Origin: Candidatus Eisenbacteria bacterium
GTDB lineage: Bacteria; Eisenbacteria; RBG-16-71-46; CAIMUX01; JAHJDP01
Direction of reading: 5' to 3'
Length of the DNA stretch: 41,661 nt
Assembly: GCA_018831195.1 (NCBI GenBank)
Contig: JAHJDP010000035.1
Coordinates: 1 to 41,661, forward strand
Below are positions 2,531 through 11,462 of the stretch, in pieces. Each line of letters begins with the position of its first letter. Within the stretch, counting starts at the first letter, position 1. Made by a program: the position numbers and the translations under genes. The notes beneath the pieces are model-generated. The model searched no databases and was not told where the DNA came from. It saw nothing but the letters and a program-made list of their open reading frames with translations.

Positions 2531-2546
2531 TGGCACAACCATTGCA
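2531..2546 (+). promoter_or_regulatory. Sigma-54 promoter (-24/-12)
   Basis: TGGCAC-AACCA-TTGCA matches the sigma-54 consensus TGGCAC-N5-TTGCW at every conserved base with exact spacing. The GC at 2544-2545 places transcription start near 2557. No gene starts soon after; a structured non-coding stretch with a terminator follows. Two NtrC-family regulators are encoded within 8 kb. Confidence 0.85.
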
Positions 2547-2556
2547 ATACTTAGTA

Positions 2557-2807
2557 AACACTGCTACGCGAGTTTGACCCCCCTTGACGGCCGAGGCGAT
2601 TCTTATCGCCGGGGAGCGTGGCAAGGGTTTCGAGGTGAGGTGGTGTGTTGTCAGGTGCGCCGCGCTCCGCGTTTTGAACGAGGCCCGAGAACTGGGGCCT
2701 GGATCTTTGGAATTCCCCAACCCTCTGTGCGGGTTTTACCTGCCGGTGTGGTGGATGGATTCGACTGTACCCTGGGGCCCCGGTTCGCGGGCCTCGTTCT
2801 TTTTTTT
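2557..2807 (+). ncRNA. Candidate sigma-54-dependent structured small RNA
   Basis: From the predicted start site to the end of the U-tract the transcript would be about 250 nt. It folds into three consecutive stems: a 6-bp hairpin with a TCTT loop (2595-2600 with 2605-2610), a 10-bp stem (2613-2622 with 2659-2668), and a long stem of 23 pairs in 24 positions (2676-2699 with 2776-2799) holding a 76-nt apical region. Eight T follow at 2800-2807. I do not recognise it as 6S, tmRNA, SRP RNA or RNase P RNA. Open frames crossing this region run through stem and U-tract and show no protein-like features. The stems are read directly; that it is transcribed as one RNA is inference. Confidence 0.65.
2676..2807 (+). 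terminator. Long-stem intrinsic terminator of the candidate RNA
   Basis: The outer 12 bp (2676-2687 with 2788-2799) are perfectly complementary. One A-G mismatch follows, then 11 more pairs including one G-U. The 3' arm is directly followed by T8. The next gene starts 214 bp later, so the stretch at 2531-2807 forms its own transcription unit. Confidence 0.7.
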
Positions 2808-2870
2808 GCTCTTTTCCCATCCTCGGTTTTTATCATTTAACTCTTTTTGTATCCCTTGTGACTACCGAAC

Positions 2871-2887
2871 TGTCTTGTTTCGCGACA
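2871..2887 (+). promoter_or_regulatory. Third copy of the 17-bp repeat, upstream of the oxidoreductase operon
   Basis: TGTC-TTGTTTCGC-GACA agrees with site A (2396-2412) at 14 of 17 positions, with the TGTC-N9-GACA ends identical. It sits just upstream of the possible -35 at 2900 and so could control the operon starting at 3021. Confidence 0.4.
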
Positions 2888-2899
2888 CAGTTATTCTCG

Positions 2900-2927
2900 T
2901 TCACAAATGAAGTTTACGATGTAGACT
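2900..2927 (+). promoter_or_regulatory. Possible sigma-70-type promoter for the oxidoreductase operon
   Basis: TTCACA (2900-2905), a 16-nt spacer and TAGACT (2922-2927) give 5 of 6 and 4 of 6 matches to the sigma-70 consensus. This leaves a leader of about 90 nt before the ATG at 3021. The rest of 2808-3020 is AT-rich and shows no gene. Moderate support only. Confidence 0.3.
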
Positions 2928-3020
2928 TGTAACATGTTATTAAACAAGGGCTTGGGATTTCAAAAAAGGGCTAGTGAAGGGAACGGTTCTTGAACTACAC
3001 TGAAACGGAGGATCGAATCG

Positions 3021-3455
3021 ATGGAAGCTTTCACAACCGGTCCCAAGGTTAATTTTGGAAGGGTGACCGGCTCAGATCCAGGAATTCTGGTGGTTAGCCG
3101 GGACAGCGCCTTTCTGGACAGCTTGAGAGTCCGGTGTTCGGATATTGACCCGCTTCGCTTTCAGCGGGTCGAGACCGGCAGATCCGCGCTGGACTCAGTG
3201 GAGGCCCGTGAAGTCCGCCTTGCCTTGGTGGATGAGACGGTGGTTGATATAGCCGCCGACCACCTCGTCTATCTCCTTCACACCCTGAAGCGGGATCTCC
3301 CGATCCTGTTTCTGACCGCATCGCCTTCACTCCATCAGGAAAGAGCGGCCAGACGATCCGGCGCTCTTCTGTATGCCCCAAAAGGGGATTGGGATCTGAT
3401 TCAAAAGGCCCTGAGTCATTATTCTTCAGGAGGTAAAAAACGTGTCGGCGGATGA
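3021..3455 (+). CDS. Stand-alone divergent response-regulator receiver protein
   Basis: A 144-residue single-domain protein. It keeps the receiver pattern: hydrophobic strand ILVVSRDS near residue 22, LALVDET around the expected phospho-Asp, LFLTAS with the switch Thr, and APKGDWD with the conserved Lys. The N-terminal acidic cluster is reduced (SRD instead of DDD), so metal binding and phosphorylation may be altered. The ATG has GGAG 9 nt upstream. It overlaps the ferredoxin-subunit gene by 14 bp, so the two are co-translated; a receiver at the head of a 2-oxoacid oxidoreductase operon is unusual. It may sense or regulate that complex, or be an orphan phosphate relay partner for the nearby kinase. 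No output domain is present. Confidence 0.75.
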
Positions 3456-3732
3456 TGTCAAATCCAAAGCAGCTGCAAAGGAAAAACCGAATCGCAAGGT
3501 GGGACCGAAGGGGATCGTGGAGATCTTCCCCGATGAGTGCAAAGGGTGCGGCTATTGTGTTGAGGAGTGCCCGATGAATGTGCTCATGATGTCCGAGAAA
3601 TTCAATCGGAAGGGTTATCACCCGTCGGTTTATATCGGTGATGGTTGTACAGGTTGCGGGATCTGTTTTTACGCCTGCCCCGAACCGGGTGCCATCCGGG
3701 TTCAGAAAATCAAGGAACCGCATCCGGCCTAA
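3442..3732 (+). CDS. vorD: 2-oxoacid:ferredoxin oxidoreductase, ferredoxin-like (delta) subunit
   Basis: A 96-residue protein with two [4Fe-4S] motifs, [12 protein letters not shown] near residue 34 and [12 protein letters not shown] near residue 72, as in the delta subunits (VorD/KorD) that pass electrons from the TPP site to ferredoxin. It starts at a GTG preceded by AGGAGG. The N-terminal 25 residues are lysine-rich and probably disordered. Directly downstream come the alpha and beta-gamma subunits, so this is a complete complex. Substrate choice (branched-chain 2-oxoacids or 2-oxoglutarate) cannot be decided from sequence by eye; the symbol follows the Vor naming by analogy with gene order in other anaerobes. 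Confidence 0.88.
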
Positions 3733-3800: not shown

Positions 3801-4874
3801 ATGCCCAAGATGTTGTTGAAAGGGAATGATGCCGTTGTACGGGGAGCCATCTTGGCCGGGTGCCGGCTGTACTTCGGTTATCCGATTACCCCGGCGAGTG
3901 AAATTGCGGAAACGGCCGCGAAGTTCTTTCCCCTCGTCGGAGGTTCGTTCCTCCAAGCCGAATCGGAAGTCGCCGCGATCAATATGGTCTATGGCGCCGC
4001 CGCGGCGGGTGTGCGCGCGATGACCGCCTCTTCGGGACCGGGAATCAGTCTGAAACAAGAGGGGATCTCATACCTTGCCGGATCGGAATTGCCTTGTGTC
4101 ATCGTCGATATCATGCGGGGCGGCCCGGGGTTGGGGAATATTGCTCCCGAACAGGGCGATTATAATCAGGTCGTTAAGGGTGGCGGGCACGGCAATTACA
4201 AGACGATTGTTGTGGCACCCGCTTCCGTTCAGGAAATGTGTGATTTCGCCTTTCTCGCTTTCGAATTGGCGGATCGTTATCGCAATCCGGTTTGCATCCT
4301 TACGGATGGATTCATCGGCCAGATGATGGAGCCGGTCGAATTCCCCGAGCCGATCAAAGAGATTCCCAAGAAACCTTGGTCCGTCGATCCACAATACAAG
4401 ATCCGCGAAAACCTCATTTCCTCGATCTATCTCAGCAATGTTGAACTTGAAGCCCACATCAATCATTTGCAGGACAAATACCGCGAGGTGGAGAAGAACG
4501 AGATCCGTTACGAAACGTATAAGACCGAAGACGCCGACCTGATCTTAATCGCCTACGGCATCGTTTCACGCCTGGCAAAAACGGCGATTGATCAGGCGAG
4601 AGCGGAAGGGATGAAGGTCGGTTTACTGCGGCCGATCACTCTCTGGCCCTTCCCCTCGCAGGCGATTCGGGATGTCGCCGGCCGCGCGCAGGCGATTCTC
4701 GTCTCGGAGATGTCGGTGGGTCAAATGGTGGATGATGTCCGTCTCGCCATCGAAGGCCGGGTGCCGATTGAGTTCTATGGAAGATATGGTGGCAGTGTCC
4801 CGTCGGCCGCGGAGCTTTATGACAAGATCTGCGCCCTGATCCGGAAGGATCAGGCTGCTGCGGTAAGGAGTTAA
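3801..4874 (+). CDS. vorB: 2-oxoacid:ferredoxin oxidoreductase alpha subunit (VorB/KorA type)
   Basis: A 357-residue protein, the usual length of a stand-alone alpha subunit without fused gamma. It begins [20 protein letters not shown] followed by [13 protein letters not shown], the hallmark of the pyrimidine-binding domain of this family, and has the [14 protein letters not shown] stretch near residue 75. It catalyses oxidative decarboxylation of a 2-oxoacid to its acyl-CoA with reduction of ferredoxin, in the cytoplasm and usually under anaerobic or low-oxygen metabolism. The open frame extends upstream, but the ATG at 3801 has a GAGGTG 8 nt before it and fits the family start. It is followed after 3 bp by the beta-gamma gene. 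Confidence 0.9.
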
Positions 4875-4877
4875 GCC

Positions 4878-6329
4878 ATGGCGAAGGAAGTCTTCGAAAA
4901 ATCATCATCGTTCTACGGAAGTTATGAACGACGTCCCGGCGCCGATAAGGTCACAACCCATTACTGCCCCGGTTGCGGTCATGGAAACGTTCACAAACTG
5001 ATTGCCGAGACGATCGAGGATATGGGCATACAAGATCGCACCATCTTCGTGAGTCCGGTCGGTTGCAGTGTCTTCGCCTATTATTATTTTGCGACAGGAA
5101 ACGTACAAGTCGCGCACGGCCGGGCTCCCGCGGCGGCCACGGGTATCAAGCGGGCCCATCCCGATTCGATCGTCATCGTTTATCAGGGTGACGGCGATCT
5201 GGCGGCGATTGGAACGGCTGAAATCCTCCACGCCGCCAATCGCGGTGAAGGAATCACCGTCTTCTTTATCAATAACGCCATTTATGGGATGACCGGGGGG
5301 CAGATGGCGCCCACGACATTGGTCGGACAGAAGACCACCACCACGCCCCGCGGCCGCACCGTCGAGAATGAGGGCCATCCTCTGCGTATAGCGGAGTTGC
5401 TTTCCGGTTTGGAAGCGCCGGTCTATATCGAACGCACGGCCGCGTCCGACGCCAAGCATATGAACAAAACGCGCAAGGCGATCCGCAAAGCGATCCAGGC
5501 GCAGATCGATGGCAAGGGATTTAGTTTCGTTGAAATTCTCTCTCCCTGTCCCACCGGTTGGGGAATCAGCCCGGTGAAGAGCCGTGGATGGATACACGAG
5601 GCGCTCGAACCCATCTTTCCCCTGGGTGTGACCAAGGACAGAATCCAAGAGCTTCCCGCTCATCCCCGGGGAAAGCGGATTGAGCCTGCGAATGATGAAT
5701 TGTGGGACATTCTCGAGATCCCTTCCGGCAATGGGCAGGGTGAACAGGCTTCGACGAAGATGGATCATGTGGCGGCGAAATATCGGGATCCCTTGATCAA
5801 AGTGGCCGGTTTCGGCGGCCAAGGGGTTCTTATGCTGGGTGTGGCGCTGGCCGACTGCGGTATGCGTTATGGGTATAATGTCTCGTGGCTGCCGTCTTAT
5901 GGGCCGGAGATGCGCGGTGGAACGGCCAACTGCCATGTTCGGATGGCAAGCGAACCGATCGGCTCGCCCATTGTTGCGGAGATCAGCGTGCTTGTGGCGA
6001 TGAACCGGCCGTCGCTCGAGAAGTTCGAGAAGGATCTCATTCCCGGCGGATTGCTTTTCTACGATTCCACGCTGGTCGATGTCGAACCGACACGGACCGA
6101 TGTGCAGGTTATTCCCATCCCGGCGACAAAGCTGGCTGACGAACTGGGACAGACACGGGCGGCCAATATGGTGATCATGGGCGCCTATATCACGATAACA
6201 AAAATATTCCCCTTGGAGCACGCCATTAATACACTGCCGGATTTCATCAAGAAAAGTTCGATGATTCCGTTGAATGTGGAGGCGCTGAAACGTGGGGAGA
6301 AGTTCATCCTGGAAGAGTATAAAAAGTAA
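4878..6329 (+). CDS. 2-oxoacid:ferredoxin oxidoreductase, fused beta and gamma subunits
   Basis: A 483-residue protein. Residues 1 to about 285 are the TPP-binding beta subunit: YCPGCGHGNVHKL, then GDGDLAAIGT and NNAIYGMTGGQ, which bind Mg-TPP. Residues from about 300 form a complete gamma domain: VAGFGGQGVLMLG, then SYGPEMRGGTANC. In most organisms these are two genes (beta about 250 residues, gamma about 180), so this is a beta-gamma fusion. The ATG lies 3 bp after the alpha-subunit stop with AAGGAG 8 nt upstream. Together with the preceding genes it makes the four classical subunits in three polypeptides. The linker at about 265-300 (SGNGQGEQASTKMD) looks flexible. Confidence 0.9.
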   Translation: MAKEVFEKSSSFYGSYERRPGADKVTTHYCPGCGHGNVHKLIAETIEDMGIQDRTIFVSPVGCSVFAYYYFATGNVQVAHGRAPAAATGIKRAHPDSIVIVYQGDGDLAAIGTAEILHAANRGEGITVFFINNAIYGMTGGQMAPTTLVGQKTTTTPRGRTVENEGHPLRIAELLSGLEAPVYIERTAASDAKHMNKTRKAIRKAIQAQIDGKGFSFVEILSPCPTGWGISPVKSRGWIHEALEPIFPLGVTKDRIQELPAHPRGKRIEPANDELWDILEIPSGNGQGEQASTKMDHVAAKYRDPLIKVAGFGGQGVLMLGVALADCGMRYGYNVSWLPSYGPEMRGGTANCHVRMASEPIGSPIVAEISVLVAMNRPSLEKFEKDLIPGGLLFYDSTLVDVEPTRTDVQVIPIPATKLADELGQTRAANMVIMGAYITITKIFPLEHAINTLPDFIKKSSMIPLNVEALKRGEKFILEEYKK

Positions 6330-6419: not shown

Positions 6420-7793
6420 ATGGCGCCGGTTCCTGTAAAAATCCTGATTGTTGAAGATGATTTGAGCATGGCTGACACCTGTGAAAAGCTCTTTCGCAGA
6501 GAGCGTCTGCCTGTCGAAAAAGTCTACTCCGGTGACGAAGCTCTTCAGCGCGTTCAAAACGATCCTTCCATAAACATTGTGCTCACCGATCTTCGAATGC
6601 CGGGAATGGATGGCACCGAACTTCTGCGGCGGATAAAAGAAATCCGGCCTGAAATCGATGTCATTATCATGACCGGGTATGGGACGATTCAAAACGCCAT
6701 CCAGGCGATGAAAATCGGAGCGACAGATTACATTACAAAACCGTTCGACCGCGAAGAGCTGCTCCGAGCCATCGATCAGATTCTGGAAGCGCGGCAATTG
6801 AAACATGAGGTCGCTCGATTGAAGGAAGAGCTGGGTCAGACCTATGGATTCACCAATCTGGTGGGCCGCGGACCGGCGATGCAGCAGATTTTCTCGCAGA
6901 TCCGGGCCGCCGCCCGGAATGAATCGAGTGTTCTTATTCTTGGAGAAAGCGGCACGGGGAAAGAACTCGTCGCCCGGGCCATTCATTATTCCAGCGATCG
7001 CAAAGATGGACCGTTTGTACCGGTCAATTGCGGAGCGATACCAAAGGAGTTGATTGAATCAGAGCTCTTTGGACACCGGCGCGGCTCTTTCACCGGCGCC
7101 AGTCAAGACACCGTGGGTCTGTTCCGCTCCGCCGACGGCGGCACCATCTTCTTGGATGAAATCGCCGAAATGCCGATCGAAACACAGGCGACGCTGCTCC
7201 GGACGCTTCAAGATAAACGGGTGCGCGCCGTGGGAGACGTCAGCGAAATCCAGGTGGATACCCGGTTTGTAGCGGCGATGAACCAGAAGGTCGAAACCGC
7301 TTTGCAGGCTGGAAAACTTAGGCAGGATCTCTATTACCGAATCGGTGTCATCATTGTGAAACTGCCTCCATTGAGAGACCGCACAGAGGACATTCCTTTT
7401 CTGATCCAGTATTTTCTCGAGAAATTCAACAAATCCTTCCGGAATAAGATCCAGGGCGTAGCCCCCCAGGCGCTGCAAAGGCTGCAGGAGTATTCCTGGC
7501 CGGGGAATGTCCGTGAGCTGGAGAATTTTATCGAGTCGAGTTATGCTATCGGGGCCGAAGGCCAGCTTGATGTCAGACATCTTCCCGATACGATCCTCAA
7601 GCCGGCGCGCGCGCCGCAGGACCGCCTCGAGGATCCATCAACCCTGCCTCTGGCTGATGTGGAGCGCGAGGCCGTCATCCGGGCCCTGGAGAGGGCGGGT
7701 GGGAATAAATCACGGGCGGCCGAGGCCTTGCGGATTTCCAGATCCCGCTTGTACAAAAAAATCCACGATTATGGACTGACCCAATGGCTATGA
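6420..7793 (+). CDS. NtrC-family sigma-54-dependent response regulator
   Basis: A 457-residue protein. The receiver domain (1-120) has the acidic pocket VEDD, phospho-Asp in LTDLRMPG near residue 57, MTGYG and ITKPF. The central AAA+ domain has Walker A GESGTGKE near 173, GSFTGA in the sigma-54-contacting loop (normally GAFTGA), and Walker B IFLDEIAE. The C-terminus is a Fis-type helix-turn-helix (NKSRAAEALRISRSRLYKKI). It should activate sigma-54 promoters after phosphorylation by the histidine kinase encoded 13 bp downstream. GAGGAG precedes the ATG. The Ala-to-Ser change in the loop occurs in other active members of the family. The sigma-54 promoter at 2531 is a plausible target. Confidence 0.95.
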   Translation: MAPVPVKILIVEDDLSMADTCEKLFRRERLPVEKVYSGDEALQRVQNDPSINIVLTDLRMPGMDGTELLRRIKEIRPEIDVIIMTGYGTIQNAIQAMKIGATDYITKPFDREELLRAIDQILEARQLKHEVARLKEELGQTYGFTNLVGRGPAMQQIFSQIRAAARNESSVLILGESGTGKELVARAIHYSSDRKDGPFVPVNCGAIPKELIESELFGHRRGSFTGASQDTVGLFRSADGGTIFLDEIAEMPIETQATLLRTLQDKRVRAVGDVSEIQVDTRFVAAMNQKVETALQAGKLRQDLYYRIGVIIVKLPPLRDRTEDIPFLIQYFLEKFNKSFRNKIQGVAPQALQRLQEYSWPGNVRELENFIESSYAIGAEGQLDVRHLPDTILKPARAPQDRLEDPSTLPLADVEREAVIRALERAGGNKSRAAEALRISRSRLYKKIHDYGLTQWL

Positions 7794-7806: not shown

Positions 7807-9153
7807 ATGGATTCACCTTCCACTTTGCGCCGGGCCGCCTGGTGGGGATCCCTCCTCATTTTAATCCTCTGCTTCGCGGAGACCTGGTTGCTGGCCCGGG
7901 ATCTTCCTGTTGTCACCCTCTTTCTCATCGCCGCCCTTCCGGCCGCCGCCTTCGCCCTTTGGGGGGGGTATCTCTCCCGGGAATCAGCGCGCCTCGCCGA
8001 GCGCCATCGGTCCGCTGAGCGCGAACTCCACAGCCGGTTGTCCCGAACGGAAAATACCCTCACCCCGATCCTGGATCAAACGGAGGAGGCGATTCTGATT
8101 TTGGATCTCAATGAGGTCATCCGAAGCTGCAATCCCGCCGCACGCGATATTTTCGGTTATCCGGCGGATCAAATGATCGGGCAGCCTTACAGCCGGCTGC
8201 TCCCCAATGGCGATCCCAAACACGAGGGATTTCTAAAGCGGCTGAATCAGAAGGGAAAGGTCCAGGATTTTCAAACCACACGATGTCTGGCCGATGGAAG
8301 TGAAATCGCCGTCTCCATCTCGCGCTATCTTGTGAAAGGTGACGAGGGGCTGGCGCTGGGAACCGTTGAGATTCTGAGGGACCTCTCTGAGTACCGCCGG
8401 ATCGAACAGGAGCTTTTGACGACAGAGAAGATGGCGGCGGTGGGAAAGATGTCCTCAAAGGTCGTTCACGAGATTCGCAATCCCCTGGCCTCGATCAGTC
8501 TGAATGTCGATCTGCTCGGCGATTCGCTGCACCTTCTCCCTCCGCATGAGGAGAGCGAGGCCACGGAAATACTTCAAAATCTGAAAAGGGAAACGCGGCG
8601 CCTCCGGCAGATCACCGAAGAATACCTGCAGTTTTCCCGCCTGCTGCGAAAGGAATTCCGGCTGGAAGATGTCAACCAGGTCCTGCTGGAATTGGCGGAT
8701 TTCGCGAGGCCCGAATTCCGCCGCAAGGGGATTCAGATCCTGCTGCGTCTCGATGAAAAGCAACCAAAGGCGATGATCGACGCCGGTTCCATCCGTCAAG
8801 CTGGATTGAACCTCGTACGAAATGCGATGGAAGCCGCCGATCCGCAGGGCCATATCCGCCTATCGACCTTGGATCTCGGTGATAGGGTTGAGATCCGTGT
8901 GGCCGATGACGGATGCGGCATCGCCGAAGAGGATCTTCCGCATATCTACGATCCGTTTTTTACAACAAAACGGGACGGCACCGGTTTGGGACTGGCCGTC
9001 GTCCGCCAAATTGTGGAAGAGCATGGCGGACGGATTCAAGTGCGTTCATTAGTAGGCCGGGGAACGACCTTTGTCATTTTCCTTCCCAAAAAGAAGGCGG
9101 GTGGGAAGGGGAAGGATCCCCAGAAGCCTCAAGCCGCCGACGCGGAAATATAG
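7807..9153 (+). CDS. Membrane-bound PAS sensor histidine kinase (NtrB/AtoS type)
   Basis: A 448-residue protein. Two hydrophobic segments (about 12-30 and 33-53) anchor it with almost no periplasmic loop, so the signal is probably cytoplasmic or within the membrane. A PAS domain spans about 85-200 (LILDLNEVIRSCNPAARDIFGYPAD). HisKA follows with the phospho-acceptor His at about 221 (VVHEIRNPLASI), then a GHKL ATPase with N box (LNLVRNAMEAA), G1 (VADDGCGIAEED), F box (DPFFTTKRDGTGLGL) and G2. It is cotranscribed with the NtrC-type regulator before it and is its likely partner. Its end overlaps the convergent minus-strand gene by 25 bp. Confidence 0.95.
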   Translation: MDSPSTLRRAAWWGSLLILILCFAETWLLARDLPVVTLFLIAALPAAAFALWGGYLSRESARLAERHRSAERELHSRLSRTENTLTPILDQTEEAILILDLNEVIRSCNPAARDIFGYPADQMIGQPYSRLLPNGDPKHEGFLKRLNQKGKVQDFQTTRCLADGSEIAVSISRYLVKGDEGLALGTVEILRDLSEYRRIEQELLTTEKMAAVGKMSSKVVHEIRNPLASISLNVDLLGDSLHLLPPHEESEATEILQNLKRETRRLRQITEEYLQFSRLLRKEFRLEDVNQVLLELADFARPEFRRKGIQILLRLDEKQPKAMIDAGSIRQAGLNLVRNAMEAADPQGHIRLSTLDLGDRVEIRVADDGCGIAEEDLPHIYDPFFTTKRDGTGLGLAVVRQIVEEHGGRIQVRSLVGRGTTFVIFLPKKKAGGKGKDPQKPQAADAEI

Positions 9154-10037: not shown

Positions 10038-11462
10038 ATGGCTCTACAGGATACGACACATCATCAGACCCAAATCCCTCAACTGCTTCTCTTGATTGAG
10101 AAGGAGGCGGAAGGAAGCCGCATCAAGGCCTTTCTTGAAAGAGAAGCCTTCCATGTCTTTTTCGTATCGACAAACGAAACCGCTTATAATGTGATCGACA
10201 AAGCGCAGCTGGATATCCTCATTACACAAATCGATGGGCATCATATCGACGGAATGAAACTCCTGGAGCTGGCCAGGCAGCACAATCCGGAGATTTGCAT
10301 TATTCTTCTTGCTGAAGCCCAAGAAGTAGGAAAAGCAACGCGGGCCATGGCCGAGGGGGTCTACGATTTTCAAATCCGGCCCTTTAATCTTGAGAAGATG
10401 GCCGCGGTGATCCGCAAGGGGATCGATTATCAGCATCTGCAGGCGGAGAATGTTGAATTAACCCGGAGGCTCGACAGGAAATACGGATTCCACAATATCC
10501 TCGGCGATTCCGCCTCGATGTCCAAGGTTTTCAAAAAAATCCGCCAGGTCGCCCCCGGATCGGAGACGATACTGCTTATAGGCGAGGATGGAACGGGGAA
10601 AGACCTTATCGCCTCATCCATTCATCATAACAGCCCGCACCGCAGCGCGCCCTTTATCAAACTCAGTTGCGAGGCCCTCGCTGAGAATCTGATGGAAGCG
10701 GAATTGTTCGGTGAATTCTCGCGGAATGCCCCTGGTCTTGGGAGAACGGGCAAAGGATGTCTTGAATTGGTGGCGGGAGGGACCCTCTTTCTCGATGAGG
10801 TAACGAATCTGAGCCTCGCGATTCAAAAGAGGTTGTTGGATATTTTGGAGCGGGGGGAATATAAGATTCCCGGGCGTGCGAAACCGCAACCGGTGAAATT
10901 TCGTACCATTGCCACGTCGAGTGAAGATCTCCGGATACGGGTTGATGGGGGTCTTTTTCTCGAGAAACTTTATCAGCGGCTCTCCCGGGTGCAGATCGAT
11001 CTGCCGCCCCTACGGCGCCGCAGGACGGATATCCCGCTCCTTGTACGGCATTTCCTTGAGGAAGCCAATCGCGCCCTCAATACCTCGGTTCAAGAGTTCA
11101 CACGGCCATCGATGGATCGTCTGACTCAATATGATTGGCCCGGAAATATCCGGGAATTGAAAAGCATGATCCGCCAACTTGTCGAGGCGAAGAGAAGCGG
11201 CAAGATTGAGCTCTACGCCCTCCCGGTGAGGGTCCGGACCGCTCTTCCGCCCGGTTCCGATCTGCATCTTCGGGTCGGAATGTCCCTGACGGAGATAGAA
11301 CGGGCGGTCATGCGGGAGACTCTGGTCCGGTGCAATTGGAATCGGCGGCAAACCGCGCGAATGCTCGGTATCGGGCTGCGCACTCTCTATAGAAAGATCA
11401 AAGAATACGATATTCGTTCTCCGATTGAGGAACTTCCCGGCCCGCCCCACGTGCCGGAATGA
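10038..11462 (+). CDS. NtrC-like AAA+ regulator with pseudo-receiver and no GAFTGA loop
   Basis: A 474-residue protein with receiver (about 12-130), AAA+ (about 150-380) and Fis-type helix-turn-helix (NWNRRQTARMLGIGLRTLYRK, 433-453). The receiver lacks the phospho-acceptor: where D is expected (LTD) it reads LITQID, with Q64; the switch Lys is Arg (IRPF). Walker A (GEDGTGKD, about 182) and Walker B (LFLDEV) are present, but the GAFTGA segment is replaced by EFSRNAPGLGRTGKG (226-240). One arginine-finger position is changed (FLEKLYQRL instead of FREDLYYRL). It is therefore unlikely to activate sigma-54 in the standard way. It may act on sigma-70 promoters, as an anti-activator, or form mixed oligomers with the intact NtrC encoded upstream. 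GGAGAGG lies 2 nt before the ATG, unusually tight. Confidence 0.9.
   Translation: MALQDTTHHQTQIPQLLLLIEKEAEGSRIKAFLEREAFHVFFVSTNETAYNVIDKAQLDILITQIDGHHIDGMKLLELARQHNPEICIILLAEAQEVGKATRAMAEGVYDFQIRPFNLEKMAAVIRKGIDYQHLQAENVELTRRLDRKYGFHNILGDSASMSKVFKKIRQVAPGSETILLIGEDGTGKDLIASSIHHNSPHRSAPFIKLSCEALAENLMEAELFGEFSRNAPGLGRTGKGCLELVAGGTLFLDEVTNLSLAIQKRLLDILERGEYKIPGRAKPQPVKFRTIATSSEDLRIRVDGGLFLEKLYQRLSRVQIDLPPLRRRRTDIPLLVRHFLEEANRALNTSVQEFTRPSMDRLTQYDWPGNIRELKSMIRQLVEAKRSGKIELYALPVRVRTALPPGSDLHLRVGMSLTEIERAVMRETLVRCNWNRRQTARMLGIGLRTLYRKIKEYDIRSPIEELPGPPHVPE

Follow-up and report, generated by a model that had tools for sequence, protein, structure and literature searches.

The sigma-54 promoter at positions 2531-2546 of the analysed window (the whole 41,661-nt stretch of DNA from a Candidatus Eisenbacteria genome) is, judging from its counterparts in other genomes, very probably the own, conserved promoter of a 2-oxoacid:ferredoxin oxidoreductase (VOR) operon located downstream, under the control of the activator encoded at 6420-7793. 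The RNA predicted to start behind this promoter appears to constitute the first 250 nt of the operon leader, in this genome alone among those compared, and is probably either a built-in brake on the operon or a by-product small RNA. The reading that we prefer, tentatively and at somewhat less than an even chance, is that of an activator- and sigma-54-dependent transcript which ends near 2807 and acts as a transcription attenuator of the VOR operon.

Promoter, enhancers and predicted transcript

The elements of the intergenic region that are relevant to this interpretation are as follows.

2396-2412, + strand: UAS1, a 17-bp palindromic enhancer, TGTCCTGATTCACGACA, second-ranking site of the window by the motif model
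2416-2432, + strand: UAS2, TGTGCTGTTTCGAGACA, 20 bp from UAS1
2531-2546, + strand: sigma-54 (-24/-12) promoter TGGCACAACCATTGCA, of perfect consensus; predicted transcription start near 2557
2557-2807, + strand: predicted sigma-54 transcript of about 250 nt, non-coding and GC-rich, with an intrinsic terminator at its end
2566-2672, + strand: 5' domain of the transcript with stems 1 and 2, no better than shuffles (z -0.58)
2676-2807, + strand: terminator hairpin with arms 2676-2699 and 2776-2799, a 76-nt apical part and T8 at 2800-2807
2871-2887, + strand: UAS3, TGTCTTGTTTCGCGACA, located after the terminator and before the operon, top-ranking site of the window by the motif model
2900-2927, + strand: weak sigma-70-like site (TTCACA, 16, TAGACT), matching the consensus at 9 of 12 positions only; a possible separate promoter of the operon

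A perfect -24/-12 promoter had been proposed here by a sequence-only reading of this DNA, and the search with the consensus TGGCAY-N5-TTGCW bears this out: TGGCACAACCATTGCA is the sole perfect element of this kind in the window and one of 11 in the 5.24-Mb genome, against 4 obtained with a reversed control pattern. The other ten sites are each placed, by our reading of the listing, at or just before a predicted coding start, and the 2531 site is the only one of the 11 without a gene directly behind it. The claim that the promoter is followed not by a gene is thus correct locally, but a same-strand operon begins about 214 nt past the T tract.

The paired palindromes UAS1 and UAS2 lie about 98 bp upstream of the promoter, with centres near -153 and -133, within the range of about 80-160 bp upstream that is expected for activator sites. 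The exact UAS motif occurs three times in the 5.24-Mb genome, every time at this locus. With a motif model trained on three related genomes only, the window being left out, the three UAS sites score 19.2, 17.3 and 14.7 and take ranks 1-3 in the window, while the next match scores 10.3; 0.003 such sites would be expected in a shuffled intergenic region. UAS3 is situated 134 bp ahead of the operon's first start codon, which resembles the enhancer-to-gene distance in the related genomes, and no sigma-54 site follows it (none was found in the scan of 2800-3060). An origin of the promoter region by tandem duplication was considered and rejected, as only the UAS and their immediate flanks align, with a score of 24 versus a shuffle maximum of 25. 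At the left end of the contig (125-2338, minus strand), a C-terminal fragment of a serine recombinase and a DUF4143/AAA_14 ATPase are encoded, which suggests that the DNA upstream of the enhancers was once rearranged.

All three stems described in the sequence-only reading, of 6 bp, 10 bp and 23 of 24 positions, as well as the T8 tract, are present at their places. Stem 1 is formed by GGCGAT and ATCGCC (2595-2600/2605-2610), stem 2 by GGAGCGTGGC and GCCGCGCTCC (2613-2622/2659-2668, with one G-U pair), and the 23 paired positions of stem 3 comprise 22 Watson-Crick pairs and one G-U pair. In a scan of the 41.7 kb for inverted repeats that combine 22 or more Watson-Crick matches out of 24 with a gap of at most 120, stem 3 was the sole one found. 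The region 2557-2810 is more stable than its shuffles (z -4.27; -122 kcal/mol for the whole RNA), a difference that results from stem 3 only: the z score of the domain 2676-2799 is -7.1, and the lower 12 bp of the terminator hairpin contribute -25.0 kcal/mol, whereas 54 of 200 shuffles are at least as stable as the domain 2566-2672, and stem 2 is not formed in the minimum-energy fold. Stems 1 and 2 are what the base composition yields by chance. The description of the RNA as highly structured is therefore apt for one long terminator hairpin, while the remainder is GC-rich sequence.

The boundaries of the GC-rich segment are sharp. The GC content rises from 0.40 to 0.63 at 2571, drops to 0.33 at 2811, and amounts to about 0.53-0.67 over approximately 2571-2810 as compared with 0.30-0.53 on either side. 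Codon usage gives no support for coding in 2560-2800, where all six frames score between -0.21 and -0.49 (real genes in frame score 0.24, sd 0.11), and the frames of the RNA region have no Pfam match. On sequence grounds alone, the case for a terminated non-coding transcript is good, and a length of about 250 nt with an end near 2807 is likely.

The oxidoreductase operon and its counterparts in other genomes

The operon is encoded on the same strand from 3021 on, behind an AT-rich spacer of about 213-214 nt that follows the T tract, and is accompanied by genes of a probable two-component system.

3021-3455, + strand: first gene of the operon, coding for a degenerate receiver-like protein whose Response_reg match is weak and does not reach the curated cut-off
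3442-3732, + strand: ferredoxin-type delta subunit (Fer4 families)
3801-4874, + strand: alpha subunit of 2-oxoacid:ferredoxin oxidoreductase, VorB subfamily (NF005507, 545 bits vs. a cut-off of 399)
4878-6329, + strand: fused beta and gamma oxidoreductase subunit (TPP_enzyme_C and POR)
6420-7793, + strand: NtrC/AtoC-type sigma-54 activator (Response_reg, Sigma54_activat, HTH_8)
7807-9153, + strand: PAS sensor histidine kinase (HisKA, HATPase_c, PAS)

In three related genomes (G001, G004 and G005), the same operon is directly started by paired UAS and a sigma-54 promoter, at the loci L111, L112 and L113. Genomes G001 and G004 represent another family of the same order, and their cluster comprises the receiver-like gene, ferredoxin, VorB and beta-gamma genes, followed by the activator (61%) and kinase (50%) genes, with a perfect sigma-54 site 54 nt and about 40 nt, respectively, ahead of the first gene. 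In G005, the site TGGCACGGTCCTTGCC precedes the receiver-like gene, the ferredoxin gene and the VOR genes. Relatives of the receiver-like protein are encoded in all three. Each of these genomes contains, some 100 bp ahead of the -24 box, two imperfect 17-bp palindromes at the same 20-bp spacing as the pair in the window. Orthologues of the activator at 61-63% occur only in the genomes with paired UAS, the next best match being of 45%, and an orthologue of the kinase is adjacent to that of the activator in L112 and L113.

It is the recurrence of the paired UAS, the sigma-54 site, the syntenic genes and the activator orthologues in the three relatives that marks the 2531 promoter as very probably belonging to the operon. 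The protein of 6420-7793 is the likely activator of this promoter, as far as sequence comparison can tell, and the kinase of 7807-9153 its likely partner. Sigma-54 control, as proposed in the sequence-only reading, is strongly supported by the conserved tandem enhancers and the co-occurring activator. While the enhancers, the promoter, the first gene and the enzyme genes are common to the VOR operons of the relatives and that of the window, the distance from the -24 box to the first gene is about 40-85 nt in the former and 490 nt in the latter, where the RNA and its terminator are interposed.

The gene content and regulatory neighbourhood of such operons vary. At L112 (G001), hypA- and hypB-like genes (hydrogenase maturation; named from their translations) follow the receiver-like gene, a hypE-like gene is located upstream, and a branched-chain aminotransferase-like gene lies between the oxidoreductase and activator genes. 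A second sigma-54 activator is encoded in the window at 10038-11462; in family f4 of the order (L131, L132 and L133), the oxidoreductase operon adjoins an orthologue of this second activator (about 41%) and not of the one at 6420, from which it seems that the operon changes activators. VOR-type operons by a sigma-54 activator and a histidine kinase, with sigma-54-like sites near, occur also in Acidobacteria and in Desulfotomaculum copahuensis (L027, L036 and L050), and at L050 a sigma-54-like site precedes a leucine dehydrogenase-like gene.

Searches for relatives of the RNA and comparison with known systems

The search with Rfam covariance models, which the sequence-only reading had proposed, gave no match at the gathering threshold in the window, be it to GlmY/GlmZ, Qrr, CrcZ, 6S or other families, and at E values up to 10 only weak and irrelevant ones. 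At the DNA level, the RNA found only itself among 99 genomes, and a single-sequence covariance model, applied to the class, the order and 385 genomes, found only the RNA itself and its antisense palindrome. Two covariance matches at other operon loci, with E values of 0.7-1.1, were judged to be chance ones. The VorB protein, compared with 84,980 species genomes, has its best matches (66-68%) in other phyla and no close relative, and the viral_contigs scan was empty. Conservation of the RNA in relatives was thus not found, and the three relatives that share the promoter lack such an RNA; all of them are outside the genus and family. As the genomes compared belong to other genera and other families, this indicates absence outside the lineage and is not a disproof.

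The nasF promoter of Klebsiella is dependent on NtrC and sigma-54. In the NasR/NasT-regulated nas leaders (nasF of Klebsiella oxytoca and nasA of Paracoccus), a metabolic operon is preceded by an intrinsic terminator and, upstream of it, a further structure (PMC3369936, PMC5424462), and the placement of a terminator in the leader of these nitrate-assimilation operons is shared by the locus studied here. An ANTAR target requires a pair of hairpins, with A1 and G4 in their loops (PMC3369936). In contrast to this nasF type, the RNA of the window has one chance hexaloop at 2601, which is absent from the fold, and no pair of hairpins of which the second overlaps the terminator. There is also no ANTAR match in the receiver-like protein of 3021-3455, and an ANTAR protein search of the genome gave no match, although the control genomes were silent too.

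The genes of Qrr1, CrcZ/CrcY and GlmY are composed of upstream sites for an NtrC-type activator, a -24/-12 promoter and a terminated non-coding RNA (PMC10162802, PMC6296734, PMC6075780), a promoter layout that they have in common with the RNA of the window. The latter differs from Qrr1, CrcZ and GlmY by the lack of an Rfam match, by its genome background without an Hfq match and by its location inside an operon leader. It may be placed, with the assignment unproven, in the broad kind of sigma-54-dependent terminated leaders or small RNAs, outside any named family.

Attenuator, small RNA or by-product

In the preferred reading, the 2531 site is the ancestral promoter of the receiver-ferredoxin-VOR operon, as the sequence comparison indicates. 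The kinase of 7807-9153 would phosphorylate the activator of 6420-7793, which would bind to UAS1 and UAS2 and bring about initiation by the sigma-54 RNA polymerase near 2557. Most polymerases would stop at the terminator of 2676-2807, so that the RNA released would measure about 250 nt. This terminator, located between the promoter and the first gene at 3021, may serve as an attenuator, with the read-through to 3021 set by a second signal, be it the state of the polymerase or the action of a protein or ligand on the leader; this is the least certain step. Such a role is suggested by the operon's own promoter, the collinear same-strand layout and the lack of any other sigma-54 promoter, as well as by the strong terminator, the sharp GC boundaries and the missing coding signal. 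It is weakened by three observations. No antiterminator is evident: no mutually exclusive, self-switching fold was found, RNA-only alternatives in which one or the other arm of the hairpin stays unpaired being weaker by 34-37 kcal/mol. UAS3 and the weak sigma-70-like site would allow the operon a promoter of its own, and no relative carries the RNA.

The same spacer elements, together with the T8 terminator and the RNA's own promoter and enhancers, fit a different history, rather unlikely but worth consideration, in which a free-standing sigma-54-dependent small RNA gene took over the old promoter and the operon uses one near UAS3. The layout would then be like that of Qrr1, CrcZ and GlmY, and the RNA would act in trans by base-pairing or protein binding. 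Several results speak against this: an Hfq match is absent from the genome, which is 99.3% complete (5 known genomes used as controls did yield Hfq), no stretch longer than the 5' end and two loops of 4 nt is accessible as a seed, and the fold places none of the five GGA triplets in an apical loop, where the CsrA/RsmA-sequestering type requires several of them. The lack of conservation outside this genome also speaks against such a gene. The small RNA label of the sequence-only reading is therefore retained as far as a terminated non-coding transcript is concerned, which the sequence supports, but not as to stand-alone status, the promoter being that of the downstream operon; with this promoter conserved, a leader or attenuator is at least as likely as a stand-alone small RNA. 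An intermediate possibility, which we regard as quite improbable, is a lineage-specific, Hfq-independent RNA that attenuates the operon in cis and also regulates targets in trans, with UAS3 re-linking the operon to the activator.

Restriction to this genome and a 5' domain at shuffle level would be expected, too, if GC-rich DNA with a terminator had been inserted or had drifted into the leader recently, the terminated RNA being a functionless by-product. It fits this account that the upstream neighbours (the DUF4143 ATPase and the recombinase fragment) are not the genes seen in the relatives. Against it stand the intact state of the paired UAS, the perfect promoter and the clean T8 terminator, and the retention of UAS3 near the operon; we consider it unlikely. 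That the long inverted repeat, which has TTTT on either side, is the remnant of a small mobile element (24-bp terminal repeats around 76 bp) is very improbable, as it is present in a single copy according to DNA and covariance searches of the genome and its 3' arm with T8 is exactly a terminator. Least probable of all is a small protein encoded in 2505-2840 or in another open frame: open stretches of about 90-110 codons exist in three frames, but they cross the terminator and have the negative codon scores and lack of Pfam matches given above.

Should the leader be a working attenuator, it would place a 2-oxoacid oxidoreductase operon of a sparsely sampled lineage under both sigma-54 activation and termination control. 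The comparison of genomes points to a concrete activator, to the 17-bp motif that it targets and to a regulon that is conserved, and illustrates that a conserved sigma-54 promoter can resemble a solitary RNA gene in one genome.
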